Source: Chitinophagaceae bacterium
GTDB lineage: Bacteria > Bacteroidota > Bacteroidia > Chitinophagales > Chitinophagaceae
Direction: 5' to 3'
Assembly: GCA_947446645.1 (NCBI GenBank)
Contig: CANFHA010000001.1
Span: forward strand, 186,001-250,000
DNA length: 64,000 bases
Positions 18,158 through 60,524 of this stretch are shown here, one piece after another. The first letter of the stretch is position 1; each line of letters opens with the position of its first letter. The position numbers were made by a program, and so were the translations under genes. The notes beneath the pieces were generated by a model, which saw only the letters and a list, made by a program, of their open reading frames with translations, was not told where the DNA came from and did not search any database.

Positions 18158-19357
18158 ATGGCTTTTCCTTTAGATAAGAATGCCCCTAAGAAAGAAAAAA
18201 AGAAAAAGCCGGTCTGGCGCGAGTGGCTGGACGCCGGCCTGTTTGCCATAGTGGCAGCTACGCTCATACGAACATTCTTTTTCGAAGCTTACACCATACC
18301 TACCGGCTCTATGGAGGGTACTATGCTTATAAACGATTACCTGTTTGTAAGCAAACTTGCCTACGGCCCACGTGTACCTATGACGCCGCTGGCTATCCCA
18401 TTGGTTCACAATACTATGCCGTTCTTTGGTGGTAAGTCTTACACCGAGGCGGTACAATGGAAATACCATCGCATGCCTGGTTTCGGCCACGTGGAGCGCA
18501 ATGACGTGGTGGTGTTCAACTTCCCTGCCGGCGATACGGTCATCACCGAAAATCCGGAAATGGATTATTACCAGGCATGCCGCGGCATTGGCCGCGAAAA
18601 TGTGATGAGCCGCAGTAAGATCATCACCCGCCCTGTAGATAAAGAAGAGAATTATATCAAGCGTTGCATAGGTGTACCCGGCGATGTACTGCAGATAAAG
18701 GATGCTCGGGTATATATTAATGGTCAGCCAAACGTATCGTACCCACACTCCCGGCTGAACTATATTATTAAAACCAATGGCCGCCCACCCGCCATAGATG
18801 AGGCCGCAGAGCAGCCGCAGATGATCAACCCTAATACCTACGTCTGCAATCTGGCCAACGACCAGGTAGCGGATGCGAAAAAAGCGCCAAACGTACTAGC
18901 GGTAGACCTCTACCTGAATACCCCCGCCGGCCTCTCGCCTGCCGACCCTGAGCAATGGGTTTTCCCTTTCGATACCGTTAACTACAAATGGAATCGTGAT
19001 AACTACGGGCCGCTTACCATTCCTAAAGAAGGTACTACCGTTACACTCACTCCGCAAAATATTGCTGTCTATCGCCGCATCATCCGCAATTACGAGGGCA
19101 ATACCCTGGAAGAGCAAAATGGTAAGTATATCATCAACGGCAAGGAAGCAACTACATACACCTTTAAGATGGACTACTACTGGATGATGGGCGATAACCG
19201 CCACAATTCAGCAGACTCCCGCTACTGGGGCTTTGTTCCCGCCGACCACGTTGTGGGCAAAGCCTGGTTTGTATGGCTCAGCTACGGCGAAGGTGGCCTG
19301 CTCAAAGACATGCGCTGGAAGCGCCTGTTCCGCGGCATCCACTCGCTGGAAAAATAA
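18158..19357 (+). CDS. lepB: Signal peptidase I, copy 1
   Basis: This 399-residue type I signal peptidase cleaves Sec and Tat signal peptides at the outer face of the inner membrane. A basic N-terminus (KKEKKKKP) precedes one membrane segment (~24-42). The catalytic Ser is Ser51 in IPTGSMEGTM. The general-base Lys is in NYIKRCIGVPGD. The box E motif MMGDNRHNSADSRYWGFVP is intact near the C-terminus. The protein is much longer than E. coli-type minimal enzymes because of an insertion of about 120 residues between the Lys box and box E, common in Bacteroidota. A close paralogue follows at 19504 after a strong terminator. Confidence 0.95.
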   Translation: MAFPLDKNAPKKEKKKKPVWREWLDAGLFAIVAATLIRTFFFEAYTIPTGSMEGTMLINDYLFVSKLAYGPRVPMTPLAIPLVHNTMPFFGGKSYTEAVQWKYHRMPGFGHVERNDVVVFNFPAGDTVITENPEMDYYQACRGIGRENVMSRSKIITRPVDKEENYIKRCIGVPGDVLQIKDARVYINGQPNVSYPHSRLNYIIKTNGRPPAIDEAAEQPQMINPNTYVCNLANDQVADAKKAPNVLAVDLYLNTPAGLSPADPEQWVFPFDTVNYKWNRDNYGPLTIPKEGTTVTLTPQNIAVYRRIIRNYEGNTLEEQNGKYIINGKEATTYTFKMDYYWMMGDNRHNSADSRYWGFVPADHVVGKAWFVWLSYGEGGLLKDMRWKRLFRGIHSLEK

Positions 19358-19373
19358 ATAGTATATAAATAAG

Positions 19374-19410
19374 AAAAAGGCGTTACTGCATCTGCGGTAA
19401 CGCCTTTTTT
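19374..19410 (+). terminator. Terminator between the two lepB genes
   Basis: AAAAAGGCGTTAC pairs with GGTAACGCCTTTTT around a short loop, with T6 at the end. It starts 17 bp after the first lepB stop, which argues that the second copy has its own promoter or depends on readthrough. Confidence 0.9.
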
Positions 19411-19503
19411 CTGCCCGGGCATTTGTTAAATATTTACTTAAGTTGCTTACCGGCAAAATAACTGTGGCTGCAGGTCGTTTCTTCCTGTTACAAACGCACA
19501 CAT

Positions 19504-20715
19504 ATGTTATTCGGCAAAAAAACGAGCACCCCGCAGAACTCTCTGGTGGAAAATAAGAAATCGGTACTGCGCCAGTGGCTTGATGCGGGCGTATTCGCCA
19601 TTATTGCAGCCACGCTCATCCGCACCTTTGTCTTTGAAGCCTACGCCATACCATCTGGTTCCATGGAAGGCACTATGCTTATAAATGACCACCTTTTCGT
19701 GAGCAAGCTTGCCTATGGCACGCGATTACCTATCACACCGCTCGCCCTTCCGCTGGTTCATAATACAATGCCATTCACTGACGACAAATCCTATTCAGAT
19801 GCAGTACAATGGAAATATCACAGGCTACCCGGCCTGGGCCGTGTTGAGCGTAATGATGTTGTTGTCTTTAATGCCCCTGACGGCGATACCGCAATAACAG
19901 GGCTGGGAGATGAAAGCCTCGACTACTACCAGGTATGTCGTATACTTGGCCGCGATGAGACCTATAGCCGGTATAAAATTGTAACCCACCCGGTGGACAA
20001 ACAAGAAAACCTGATCAAAAGATGTGTTGGCCTCCCCGGAGACAAACTGGAAATAAAAGATGCCCTCGTATATGTAAATGGCCAGGCTGCTGTCCGGTTT
20101 CCTCATTGCAAACTCAACTATATCGTGCACACAAACGGCACAGCTCCGGCCACCGATGACAATATTGAATTGACCCAAAAGATCAATAACAGCGAATATA
20201 TTTATAACCTGGCAAGCGACCAGGCGGCCAATATGAAGAAGGCAGTCAATGTCATATCCGCTGAACCCTATATTCAATACCCGGCAGGTGTATCACCCGC
20301 TACACCCGGGGAATGGGTATTTCCGCTTGATACCACCAACTACAAGTGGAACCGCGACAATTACGGCCCACTCACCGTTCCTATGGAAGGTACTACAGTC
20401 AACCTCACCTCACAAAATATAGCTCTCTACCGCCGTATCATCCGCAACTATGAGGGAAACACCCTCGAAGAACAAAACGGGAAGTTTATTATAAACGGGA
20501 AGGAAACTACATCCTATACCTTTAAAATGGACTATTACTGGATGATGGGCGACAACCGCCACAATTCCCTCGACTCACGCTATTGGGGCTTTGTTCCGGC
20601 AGATCACATAGTGGGCAAAGCAATGTGCGTCTGGCTCAGCTACGGCGATGGCGGAATGCTTGCCGACATGCGCTGGAAGCGCCTGCTGCGCGGAATACAC
20701 TCGCTGGAGAAATAA
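19504..20715 (+). CDS. lepB: Signal peptidase I, copy 2 (tandem paralogue)
   Basis: This 403-residue protein is collinear with copy 1. The catalytic Ser is Ser53 in IPSGSMEGTM, the Lys is in NLIKRCVGLPGD and box E is MMGDNRHNSLDSRYWGFVP, so all key residues are kept and the copy should be active. The same long insertion is present but diverged (for example AEPYIQYPAGVSPATPGEWVF against VDLYLNTPAGLSPADPEQWVF). The first ~20 residues differ. Conservation is highest at the membrane segment and catalytic boxes, suggesting an old duplication with both copies under selection. Different substrate preference or expression is inference. Confidence 0.95.
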   Translation: MLFGKKTSTPQNSLVENKKSVLRQWLDAGVFAIIAATLIRTFVFEAYAIPSGSMEGTMLINDHLFVSKLAYGTRLPITPLALPLVHNTMPFTDDKSYSDAVQWKYHRLPGLGRVERNDVVVFNAPDGDTAITGLGDESLDYYQVCRILGRDETYSRYKIVTHPVDKQENLIKRCVGLPGDKLEIKDALVYVNGQAAVRFPHCKLNYIVHTNGTAPATDDNIELTQKINNSEYIYNLASDQAANMKKAVNVISAEPYIQYPAGVSPATPGEWVFPLDTTNYKWNRDNYGPLTVPMEGTTVNLTSQNIALYRRIIRNYEGNTLEEQNGKFIINGKETTSYTFKMDYYWMMGDNRHNSLDSRYWGFVPADHIVGKAMCVWLSYGDGGMLADMRWKRLLRGIHSLEK

Positions 20716-28979: not shown

Positions 28980-31022
28980 ATGAGCGAAGAAAGATCACTT
29001 AATTTCCTGGAAGAAATAATTGAAGCCGATATCACGGCAGGCAAAAACAACGGTCGTGTACTTACCCGTTTCCCGCCTGAGCCCAATGGCTACCTGCATA
29101 TCGGTCATGCCACATCTATCTGCCTCAACTTCGGTCTGGCAAAAAAATACAACGGCAAGACCAACCTCCGTTTCGATGACACCAACCCCGTCACCGAGGA
29201 GACAGAATATGTAGAAAGCATAAAAAACGACATAAAATGGCTCGGCTTCCAGTGGGACAATGAGTTTTATGCATCCGATTATTTCGATAATATGTATGAT
29301 TTTGCGGTAACGCTCATCACCAAAGGCCTTGCCTATGTAGATGATAGTACCGCCGAAGAGATCGCAGCCACCAAGGGCTCACTCGTTACACCCGGCATCA
29401 ATAGCCCCTATCGGGACAGGACCGTTGCGGAGAACATGCAGCTGTTTGCAGATATGCGCGCCGGCAAATTCAAGGATGGGGAAAAAACACTGCGTGCCAA
29501 AATAGATATGGCGCACCCTAACCTGCTTATGCGCGATCCGCTTATGTACCGTATCAAGCATGAGCATCACCACCGCACAGGCGATAAGTGGTGCATCTAC
29601 CCCATGTACGATTTTGCGCATGGCCAGAGCGATAGCATTGAGCAGATCACACATTCTATCTGCACGCTCGAGTTCATTCACCACCGTCCCCTCTACTACT
29701 GGTTCATTGAGCAGCTCGGCATCTTCCCATCGCACCAGTATGAGTTTGCCCGCCGCAACCTTACGTATACCGTTATGAGCAAGCGCAAGCTGCTGCAGCT
29801 TGTTAACGAGAAGCATGTTTCCGGCTGGGACGATCCCCGCATGCCCACCATCAGCGGCATGCGTCGCCGTGGCTACACCCCTGAGGCCCTGCGCCAGTTC
29901 TGCGATACCATAGGCATTGCAAAGCGCGAGAACATTACCGATATCAGCATGATGGAGTTTTGCGTGCGTGAGCACCTAAACAAGATCACACACCGTGTTA
30001 TGGCTGTGCTCGATCCCGTTAAGCTCGTCATCACCAACTACCCTGCCGGCCAGGAAGATATTTTTACACTCGAAAACAATCCCGAAGATCCTGCAAGCGG
30101 TTCGAGGCAGGTGCCATTCAGCCGCGAGCTATGGATAGAGCGCGAGGATTTTATGGAAGAAGCCGCTAAGAAATTCTTCCGCCTCACACCCGGTAATATG
30201 GTCCGGTTAAAAGGCGCCTATATCGTAAAGTGCGAGGGCTGTGCTAAAGACGCTGCTGGCAATATTACGGAAGTGCTCTGCACCTACCTGCCCGAAAGCC
30301 GCAGCGGCAACGACACCAGCGGACTCAGCGTAAAGGGCACTATACACTGGGTAAGCGTGGCCCACGCCCATACTGCTGAAGTGCGCATGTACGATCGTTT
30401 GTTCCGCGTCGAAGATCCATCTAACGAAGAAGGCAACTTCAAAGATTACATTAACCCGGACTCCATGCACATATTGCCATCGGTATATATAGAACCCGCG
30501 CTGGCCACTGCTAAGCCAGGCGACCGCGTGCAGTTCATGCGCAAAGGATATTTCTGTGTCGACACAGATAGCACCTCGGCTAACATCGTCTTTAACCGCA
30601 CGGTAACCCTGGTTGATGCCTGGGCAAAAGAAAAAAATGAGCTGCTCAGTTTTGACGATTTCTTCCAGTCCTTCAAAGACAATGACTGGCTGAAGGAACA
30701 GCGGAAAGCCATCACTTTCGACACCTTCCTGCAGGCGTTAAAAGAAAAAGAATCAGCCGATGCACAAAAGAAAAAGATGAGTGCCGCTGCACATGAAAAA
30801 AACCTGAAAGATGCATGGACAAAGGAACAGAGGCGCGTTATGACCTTTGATGAATACGCGCAGTCTATGCAGCACAGCGAGTGGGCACAAGAGCAGAAAA
30901 AGGTGTTGAGCTTTGATGAGTTCGTTGCTTCTTTAAGGGAGAATGACCTTGCAAAGAAGGAAAGAAAAATGATGACGTTCGACCAGTTTGTAAAAGACGA
31001 ACGGAAAAAGAAAGTGCTGTAA
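28980..31022 (+). CDS. glnS: Glutaminyl-tRNA synthetase with C-terminal 22-residue tandem repeats
   Basis: This 680-residue class I synthetase charges tRNA-Gln. The catalytic core has [17 protein letters not shown] (HIGH) and the KMSKS equivalent [10 protein letters not shown]. Discriminating GlnRS blocks such as LRFDDTNP and [23 protein letters not shown] are present. Two anticodon-binding barrels follow to about residue 550. E. coli GlnRS is 554 residues; the extra ~125 (556-680) are 22-residue repeats of the form [LIM][ST]FDxF...K-E-Q-R/K-K, about 5.7 copies, charged and probably helical. They do not look like the YqeY-type tail known from Deinococcus GlnRS. Start chosen from the promoter position and the conserved N-terminus. 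Confidence 0.95.
30645..31019 (+). repeat. 66-nt coding repeat in the 3' end of glnS
   Basis: Units begin at residues 556 (LSFDDFF), 578 (ITFDTFL), 600 (diverged, MSAAAHEKN), 621 (MTFDEYA), 643 (LSFDEFV) and 665 (MTFDQFV, partial). Spacing is 22 residues, except for 21 in the diverged unit. Copies differ clearly at DNA level. Confidence 0.85.
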
Positions 31023-31036
31023 GACAATTAAATACA

Positions 31037-31080
31037 AGAGAGCGGATAATGTTATCCTGGTAACATTATCCGCTCTCTTA
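31037..31080. terminator. Bidirectional terminator between glnS and ridA
   Basis: AAGAGAGCGGATAATGTTA pairs perfectly over 19 bp with its complement around the loop TCCTGG. It sits between two convergent genes, 14 bp from the glnS stop and 11 bp from the ridA stop. Confidence 0.88.
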
Positions 31081-31091
31081 AACAAGCCTTT

Positions 31092-31472
31092 TTATTTTCC
31101 GGCTATCATGCTTATTTCCACGTTCACTCCCTTTGGCAGTCCTGCCACCTGCACTGTTTCTCGTGCCGGAGGATCAGTGGTAAAGTAGCTTGCATATACC
31201 TCGTTCACCTGCGCAAACTGGCCCATATCCATCAGGAAGATAGTGGTCTTCAGTATGTTAGTGAAGTCCATACCTGCTTCGCGCAGTATAGCTTCCAGGT
31301 TTTTCATTACCAGTGTTGTTTCGGTTTTAATATCGTCCAGCACCAGGTTGCCGCTTTTAGGGTCCAGTGCTATCTGGCCCGATATGAACAGCATATTACC
31401 AAATTGAACGGCCTGGTTATAAGGCCCTATAGGCGCGGGAGCGTTGTCTGTACGAATGATCTTCTTTTCCAT
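31092..31472 (-). CDS. ridA: RidA family enamine/imine deaminase
   Basis: This 126-residue protein (start MEKKIIRTDNAPAPIGPYNQAVQ) matches the RidA/YjgF family, which hydrolyses reactive 2-aminoacrylate and related enamines from PLP enzymes. The substrate-binding Arg is in PPARETVQVAGLPKG and the conserved Glu in VEISMIAGK. GDxxxQ-like GNMLFISGQIALDP is present. The upstream extension to 31508 is rejected because it runs through the promoter region. A TACTTTTG box abuts the start, suggesting a leaderless or nearly leaderless transcript. It is divergent from tsaB, with 41 bp between start codons. Confidence 0.93.
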   Translation of the reverse strand: MEKKIIRTDNAPAPIGPYNQAVQFGNMLFISGQIALDPKSGNLVLDDIKTETTLVMKNLEAILREAGMDFTNILKTTIFLMDMGQFAQVNEVYASYFTTDPPARETVQVAGLPKGVNVEISMIAGK

Positions 31473-31477
31473 GCTCA

Positions 31478-31485
31478 CAAAAGTA
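31478..31485 (-). promoter_or_regulatory. -7 box of ridA
   Basis: The minus strand reads TACTTTTG, ending 6 bp before the ridA start codon. Only 10 bp separate it from the divergent tsaB -7 box, so the two promoters must compete for polymerase. Confidence 0.5.
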
Positions 31486-31495
31486 ATACTCGGCT

Positions 31496-31503
31496 TACAT
31501 TTG
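31496..31503 (+). promoter_or_regulatory. -7 box of tsaB
   Basis: TACATTTG ends 10 bp before the tsaB ATG, predicting a leader of about 5 nt. No -33 box is visible. Confidence 0.5.
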
Positions 31504-31513
31504 CACACTATTT

Positions 31514-60257: not shown

Positions 60258-60524
60258 ATGGCAACAGCAAAGAAGGCAGCTCCTGCGAAAAAAGCAGCAC
60301 CTGCAAAGAAAGCAGCCCCTAAGAAGGCAGCACCAGTAAAGAAGGCAGCACCAGCTAAAAAAGCTGCACCTGCTAAAAAGGCAGCACCTGCAAAGAAGGC
60401 AGCACCTGCAAAGAAAGCCGCAGCTCCTAAGAAAGCCGCAGCTCCTAAAAAAGCCGCAGCTCCTAAAAAAGCTGTAGCTAAAAAGAATGCTGGCCCTACG
60501 AAGGCAGCCGCTAAAAAGAAATAA
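60258..60524 (+). CDS. Lys/Ala/Pro-rich histone H1-like protein
   Basis: The 88-residue protein consists almost wholly of AKKAAP and PKKAA repeats with no acidic residue after the N-terminus, like the C-terminal tail of histone H1 and bacterial H1-like proteins such as AlgP and HctB types. It should bind DNA or RNA through charge. It lies 57 bp after rpmA on the same strand, with a terminator after it, and may be read with the ribosomal genes. The repeat tract spans about 60260-60520 and is likely prone to length change. Confidence 0.75.
   Translation: MATAKKAAPAKKAAPAKKAAPKKAAPVKKAAPAKKAAPAKKAAPAKKAAPAKKAAAPKKAAAPKKAAAPKKAVAKKNAGPTKAAAKKK

Follow-up and report, generated by a model that had tools for sequence, protein, structure and literature searches.

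The glutaminyl-tRNA synthetase (GlnRS) of a Chitinophagaceae bacterium was found to carry, behind an ordinary core, a C-terminal tail of 22-residue units in which the first half of the unit corresponds to the C-terminus of the enzyme itself. The tail was found in two of the 33 GlnRS of the genus that could be read, and its spread among the species was patchy; these observations are new. Judged from sequence comparison, the first half of every unit was very probably derived from the terminal peptide of the same enzyme. The features of the window, that is the whole stretch of 64,000 nucleotides that was analysed, are collected in Table 1 together with two loci of other genomes.

Table 1. Features at the glnS locus (positions in the window unless another locus is named).
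Feature	Position	Strand	Remarks
glnS, glutaminyl-tRNA synthetase, 680 aa	28980..31022	+	ATG start, TAA stop; TIGR00440 755 bits
Catalytic domain PF00749, residues 27-334	29058..29981	+	E 8e-110
Anticodon-binding barrels PF03950, PF20974, residues 338-436, 454-528	29991..30563	+	E 3e-30, 3e-25
Unit 0, 22 aa	30612..30677	+	First ten residues in the place of KDAWAKE(Q/V)KK(G)-stop of tailless congeners
Unit 1, 22 aa	30678..30743	+	
Unit 2, 21 aa	30744..30806	+	Degenerate, FDxF motif absent; low unit-to-unit scores
Unit 3, 22 aa	30807..30872	+	Copy closest to the ancestral C-terminus
Unit 4, 22 aa	30873..30938	+	
Unit 5 with basic end, 27 aa	30939..31019	+	Longest stretch identical to G016, 19 residues
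RidA-like gene (presumed name)	31092..31508	-	Convergent, directly after glnS
RES-domain and Xre/MbcA/ParS-type genes	L164 5905-6411		Convergent
Palindrome TTGACAACTTTNNNAAAGTTGTCAA, example	G043 C44:186777-186801		

The core of the GlnRS was found to be complete, with PF00749 followed by PF03950 and PF20974, all well over their cut-offs, the last domain ending at residue 528, and its score was well over the TIGR00440 cut-off of 426. Residues 3-550 were covered by structures of the E. coli GlnRS in a match to PDB sequences. The three Pfam domains, the TIGR00440 score and the structure match place the protein among the canonical bacterial GlnRS, and the normal catalytic core and anticodon-binding barrels named in the first-pass annotation were borne out.

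The tail was found to contain six units, each of 22 residues except the third (unit 2), which is degenerate and one residue shorter. The consensus of the units was ENDWAKEQRK-VITFDEFVQSLK, and the consensus computed without unit 0 was ENDWAKEQRKVITFDEFVQSLK. Autocorrelation peaks at lags 65, 22 and 43 were found both in the own genome (G000) and in the second tailed genome (G016), and the value at lag 22 was reached in 0 of 2000 shuffles for each of them, which confirms the in-frame 22-residue array that had been described at this C-terminus. The earlier estimate of about 125 extra residues was also sound (about 126 residues are truly extra, the tailless congeners stopping at about residue 554-555), whereas the 5.7 copies counted there became six units. 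The array had been placed at 30645-31019; as unit 0 has the native C-terminus for its first half, the better bounds are 30612-31019. The units of the G000 tail shared only 44-56% of their DNA, and the array was not reported by Tandem Repeats Finder, so the amplification is taken to be old, followed by no recent expansion. A block duplication of three units as the final step was considered, since lag 65 was the highest peak, but is not claimed, as it did not stand out in the unit-to-unit scores. Elsewhere in the window, an 88-aa protein of AAPAKK-type repeats (60258-60524), presumably of histone-H1-like composition, adjoins a 90-aa frame that we take to resemble ribosomal protein L27, and at 18158-20715 a pair of neighbouring frames, alike and each about 400 aa long, presumably resembles signal peptidase I paralogs.

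The genus sample consisted of 35 genomes, the own genome included, in which the end of the GlnRS was readable in 33, no GlnRS being obtained from G030 (59% complete) and G031 (57% complete). The tail was carried by G000 and G016, and the remaining 31 GlnRS were found to stop at LKDAWAKE(Q/V)KK(G) or near variants. Outside the genus, 79 GlnRS among 80 relatives were found to end 1-15 residues past the aligned core; L078 was unreadable at this end, and L038 apparently belongs to the same species as G013. Overlapping samples of the family (394 genomes, G016 not among them), the order (396) and the phylum (395) were searched with a profile of the tail (A1), and no credible match was obtained. The profile search of the repeat alone, proposed in the first-pass annotation, thus gave no credible homologue in these samples, and a tail common to most Bacteroidota GlnRS, an outcome considered there, was seen neither in the genus nor in the relatives or the phylum draw. 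Titles and abstract openings in the literature yielded no paper on the tail, which is apparently undescribed so far.

Several weak matches were read and set aside. In the genus search with the tail, 5 of the 35 genomes gave a match at E <=10, among them G032 (E 0.06) and G039 (E 0.40), both of which run across stop codons, and G002 (E 0.30), which is located in a gene other than that of GlnRS, presumably a phage-like one. The weak A1 matches of G217, G325, G787 and G912 (family and phylum draws) were discarded after their loci had been read; these we take to be a protein of 646 aa, an array resembling a CRISPR, a protein of aminotransferase type and one made of FLKAL repeats. A 382-aa protein made almost entirely of (S/N)EDFLKAL-type repeats of about ten residues was observed in one genome of the Bacteroidota sample (L181 709-1857).

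Positions 1-10 of the unit were found to align in exact register with the end of the tailless congeners, KDAWAKEQKKG-stop. Scored on the unit profile with unit 0 excluded, KDAWAKEQKKG reached 27.8 at phase 0, which is the register at which the native end precedes unit 1, followed by a runner-up of 7.0 among the 22 phases, and 27.8 was reached at any phase by 0 of 20,000 column shuffles. The score of the variant end KDAWAKEVKRG was reached by 2 of 20,000 shuffles at phase 0 and by 36 of 20,000 at any phase. In a single-sequence test against the best copy (unit 3, the first half of which reads KDSWSKEQRK in G016), KDAWAKEQKKG was equalled by 0 of 20,000 shuffles for G000 and 1 of 20,000 for G016, and KDAWAKEVKRG by 5 and 27 of 20,000, respectively. 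With the native end recurring in register as the first half of the unit, the tail is taken to have grown in place and not to be a captured domain.

The second half of the unit reads xxTFDEFxxSLK. As to its source, both tails were compared in six frames with the DNA between glnS and ridA in 12 tailless congeners, and nothing convincing emerged; the best z among the 144 comparisons was 3.3, which is chance level, and an origin of the tail from a downstream gene or intergenic DNA was rejected on this result. A palindromic element, TTGACAACTTTNNNAAAGTTGTCAA, was found once directly 3' of glnS in each of G043, G015 and G044, where it reads FDNFLKVVK, and its likeness to the second half of the unit was reached by 4 of 5000 and 48 of 5000 shuffles, and at the DNA level by 8 of 200 and 1 of 200. 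It was chosen after the 144 comparisons had been viewed, and so gives no more than a weak lead to where the second half came from. The element is a dispersed perfect palindrome with 3 copies in G000, 7 in G016, 2 in G043, 1 in G015, 12 in G044 and 0 in G004; the window contained 0 copies at <=3 mismatches, the pattern used there having a spacer shorter by one base.

The tails of G000 and G016 were found to be colinear across all six units and 62% identical. Over 127 codons, pS was 0.90 and pN 0.214, and the bootstrap range of pN/pS was 0.17-0.32, which, with pS saturated, gives the direction of selection and not its precise strength; the changes at the three codon positions numbered 33/26/69. 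The core of the same pair had a pS of 0.76 and a pN of 0.081, and the tail is accordingly faster-evolving than the core yet clearly kept as protein. Since the silent sites are saturated and the protein is constrained, the tail is considered to be both old and selected. Unit 5 was the best-kept unit and units 2 and 4 the least kept, and the Phe, Trp and Asp positions of the unit were conserved. The earlier proposal that the repeat had been amplified and kept agrees with these values, and selection of the tail for a role at the protein level is held with high confidence.

An artefact of sequencing or assembly, or a pseudogenised read-through, could be suspected in view of the fragmented genome of G016, in which glnS is divided between two contigs and 8 codons of the core are unread. 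The six units, however, stand in identical order in two genomes from different lineages, the constrained protein is free of internal stops despite the silent saturation, and the gene order 3' of glnS is conserved; such an origin is regarded as extremely improbable. A repeat domain captured from another protein and fused to the GlnRS, its likeness to the native end being convergence, would agree with the frequent movement of repeat arrays between genes and with the new sequence in the second half of the unit, for which no convincing source was found. Against such a capture, the tail was found as a single copy in the own genome (no second copy at E <=10), no copy was found in viral contigs and plasmids, the sampled genomes of family, order and phylum gave no credible match, and convergence would have to produce the register match that none of the 20,000 shuffles reached. 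Capture is therefore thought very unlikely, and growth in place is followed below.

On the in-place account, the native terminal peptide KDAWAKEQKK would have lost its stop, followed by the addition of about 12 new residues, V-(I/M/L)-(S/T)-F-D-x-F-x-x-S-L-K. The resulting 22-residue unit would then have been copied in tandem to six, presumably in this order and before the split of the two known carriers, and the tail would have been under purifying selection ever since. Each unit would form one short helix, starting at the conserved Ser/Thr of S/T-F-D-[E/D/Q]-[F/Y], which resembles a helix cap, and would present a conserved F/F-Y/L/W set and a K-E-Q-K/R end that is zwitterionic. Strung together, the helices would most likely give the synthetase an arm for docking or self-association, with no part in catalysis. 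Considered as a whole, this account of in-place extension, tandem copying, selection and a docking or self-association arm is judged probable.

In the AlphaFold model of the tail alone, the pLDDT was 50 and the pTM 0.20, and in the full-length model the pLDDT of the tail was 34-52. The low-confidence full-length model contained a helix start one residue past each of the Ser/Thr residues 557, 579, 601, 622, 644 and 666. The structure prediction proposed in the first-pass annotation thus agrees with the unit pattern in its six helix starts, but its pLDDT is too low for a structural claim. When helical hydrophobic moments were compared with shuffles, only 2 of 12 segments were found at P < 0.05. 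The kept F, W and D positions fit protein contacts, either of the tail with itself or with a partner, and a protein-protein arm is put forward as a tentative role of the tail.

Two other roles were weighed against the protein-protein arm. An arm with affinity for tRNA or rRNA, raising the affinity for tRNA-Gln in a YqeY-like manner, would be in line with the many synthetase appendages that bind tRNA, with the last unit, which is the best kept and has a net charge of +3, and with the contrast between the core (net charge -12) and the tail (+1). The K/R and D/E residues of the whole tail are, however, near balance (27 and 26 in G000, 25 and 24 in G016), and because the net charge is only +1 a strong RNA-binding arm is not suggested; moreover, no known RNA-binding domain was found in the tails by Pfam, and 31 congeners do without the tail. 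By analogy with other appendages such an arm is conceivable, and it is thought unlikely here. A spacer or solubility tail under weak structural selection, fixed by chance after tandem copying and with no specific partner, would explain the high content of charged residues (41% and 37% in the two tails), the low predicted order, the decay of unit 2 and the patchy distribution, as if the tail were dispensable; but it leaves aside the protein constraint over the whole tail, the identical 19-residue stretch of unit 5 despite silent saturation, and the retained Phe, Trp and Asp positions, and is considered doubtful as well.

The two carriers were not found to be sisters. In the TypA tree (30 of the 35 genus genomes), G000 was grouped with G040, and G016 with G014, G031, G044 and G039. 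In the GlnRS tree and the joined-locus tree, G000 was placed beside G004, G043, G001, G005 and G015, and the single genes of the genus are thus not in full agreement. The joined tree contained the GlnRS core, RidA, TsaB and ArsR-like proteins of 14 genomes, the GlnRS core of G014 being excluded for a length mismatch. A sister relation of G000 and G016 was rejected by the AU test (p 0.015, and 0.0003 with TypA added). Because the carriers are not sisters, the tail must have been lost repeatedly or passed sideways, that is, either a tailed common ancestor was followed by several losses or the 3' end of glnS was exchanged; any such exchange would be old, because the silent sites are saturated.

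The gene order glnS - ridA - tsaB - arsR-like was common to the compared genomes, the names of the last two, like that of ridA, being assumed. Between glnS and ridA, two convergent frames were found in 8 of 11 tailless congeners inspected. In G040 the pair was found to be a RES-domain protein and an Xre/MbcA/ParS-type antitoxin (PF08808, PF20432, PF09722), and in G043, G015 and G044 apparently the antitoxin end alone remains at this place. The pair was absent from G000 (window 31023-31091) and G016, so that it was missing in 2 of 2 tailed and 3 of 11 tailless genomes inspected (Fisher p about 0.13); a link between the tail and the loss of the toxin-antitoxin pair, which would rest on two carriers, is not significant and was set aside. 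A wider reading would join these points: the last ten residues of the enzyme and formerly untranslated sequence past the stop, possibly the palindrome, would have given a selected docking array of six helices, and the allele, linked to the loss of the RES-Xre pair, would have passed from one species to another when the 3' part of glnS was exchanged. This wider reading is held to be improbable as a whole.

Most domains appended to synthetases are captured folds. The present tail allows the origin of a new domain to be read off directly, since the native end is found in 31 congeners and is retained in the copied units, and the selection on the resulting tail is measurable. The tail offers a tractable system for the way in which a new domain can start with a changed stop codon and tandem copies, and also an accessory function on an essential enzyme that can be tested.

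YqeY, a paralog of the C-terminal domain of GatB, is itself a captured fold. The GatB/YqeY GlnRS of Deinococcus, some Bacteroidota and Proteobacteria resemble the present enzyme in having a lineage-restricted C-terminal appendix on an ordinary core; the YqeY appendix has about 200-230 aa with its linker (8 read), whereas in the present tail the enzyme's own end is repeated in tandem. No match of the tail to PF02637 or PF09424 was found at E <=1, while the YqeY-type GlnRS tails of three other Bacteroidota matched PF02637 at 3e-24 to 4e-43, and the first-pass annotation was right to hold the tail unlike the YqeY extension. The suitable model for such fusions is PF02637 and not PF09424, the matches of which all lay away from GlnRS genes; in G000 and in G016 it matched one such other gene. 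In the part of the source available, the YqeY-type extension is described as raising tRNA affinity in Deinococcus, and the appendix of the F. johnsoniae GlnRS was noted in 2014 not to be a YqeY paralog (PMC3927822).

The window protein was also found to pass the GlnRS/YqeY fusion model NF011291 (858, cut-off 681). The window core alone (849.9) and all three tailless GlnRS tested (829-847) passed as well, and therefore the name of this model is no evidence of YqeY. It is a naming trap, in that Bacteroidota GlnRS without a YqeY domain pass it, and annotation pipelines may mislabel the tailed GlnRS as a YqeY fusion. In Pfam, no family was found over its cut-off, the best being DDT for the G000 tail (E 0.003, 18.1 bits, cut-off 22) and EFCAB10 for the G016 tail (E 0.04), and the best of the PDB sequences was 3msw (E 0.056). 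Within Pfam and the PDB sequences the repeat is thus no known named domain, a possibility raised at the first inspection.

Other appendices were found in the phylum draw, where 141 of 296 genomes contained a GlnRS at E <=1e-100. G000 aside, 45 of 140 GlnRS had open frames of at least 660 aa, and 20 of the 45 were read. In the shorter class, 12 of 20 were found to carry a non-repeat appendix, either of the Flavobacterium type (146-153 aa) or of a second type (116-125 aa), and in the longer class 8 of 25 carried appendices that share a motif and measure 199-230 aa; the three of these eight that were put to Pfam were all GatB/YqeY. The A1 profile matched none of the 45 long-GlnRS genomes at E <=0.01, and the control G016 was matched. 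The appendices of about 150 aa (G719, G902, G886, G841, G855; L182, L183, L190, L191, L193) and of about 120 aa (G767, G878, G801, G882, G807, G793, G910; L184, L185, L192, L186-L189) were mutually different, and when an example of either kind was put to Pfam, no family was assigned with confidence. The Flavobacterium and GT(A/S)xKKxGTR types share with the present tail the phylum and a non-YqeY extension after a normal LKD(A/S/T)W end, but contain no visible 22-residue repeats, and A1 matched none of the 20 genomes of this kind. Appended tails of GlnRS have thus arisen several times in Bacteroidota, the present one being separate from the others read.

The units of WHEP domains, which are present in several synthetases, are about 50 residues long. 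As far as the available part of the source describes them, WHEP arrays are tandem short helical repeats on animal synthetases (GluProRS, MetRS and others) with a lineage-variable copy number (PMC4394549). On that description the present tail is similar in being an array of short helical repeats, here predicted ones, appended to a synthetase, and differs from WHEP in its 22-residue unit, its restriction to one synthetase and two species, and the absence of a Pfam match; WHEP arrays are the closest analogy to it in function.
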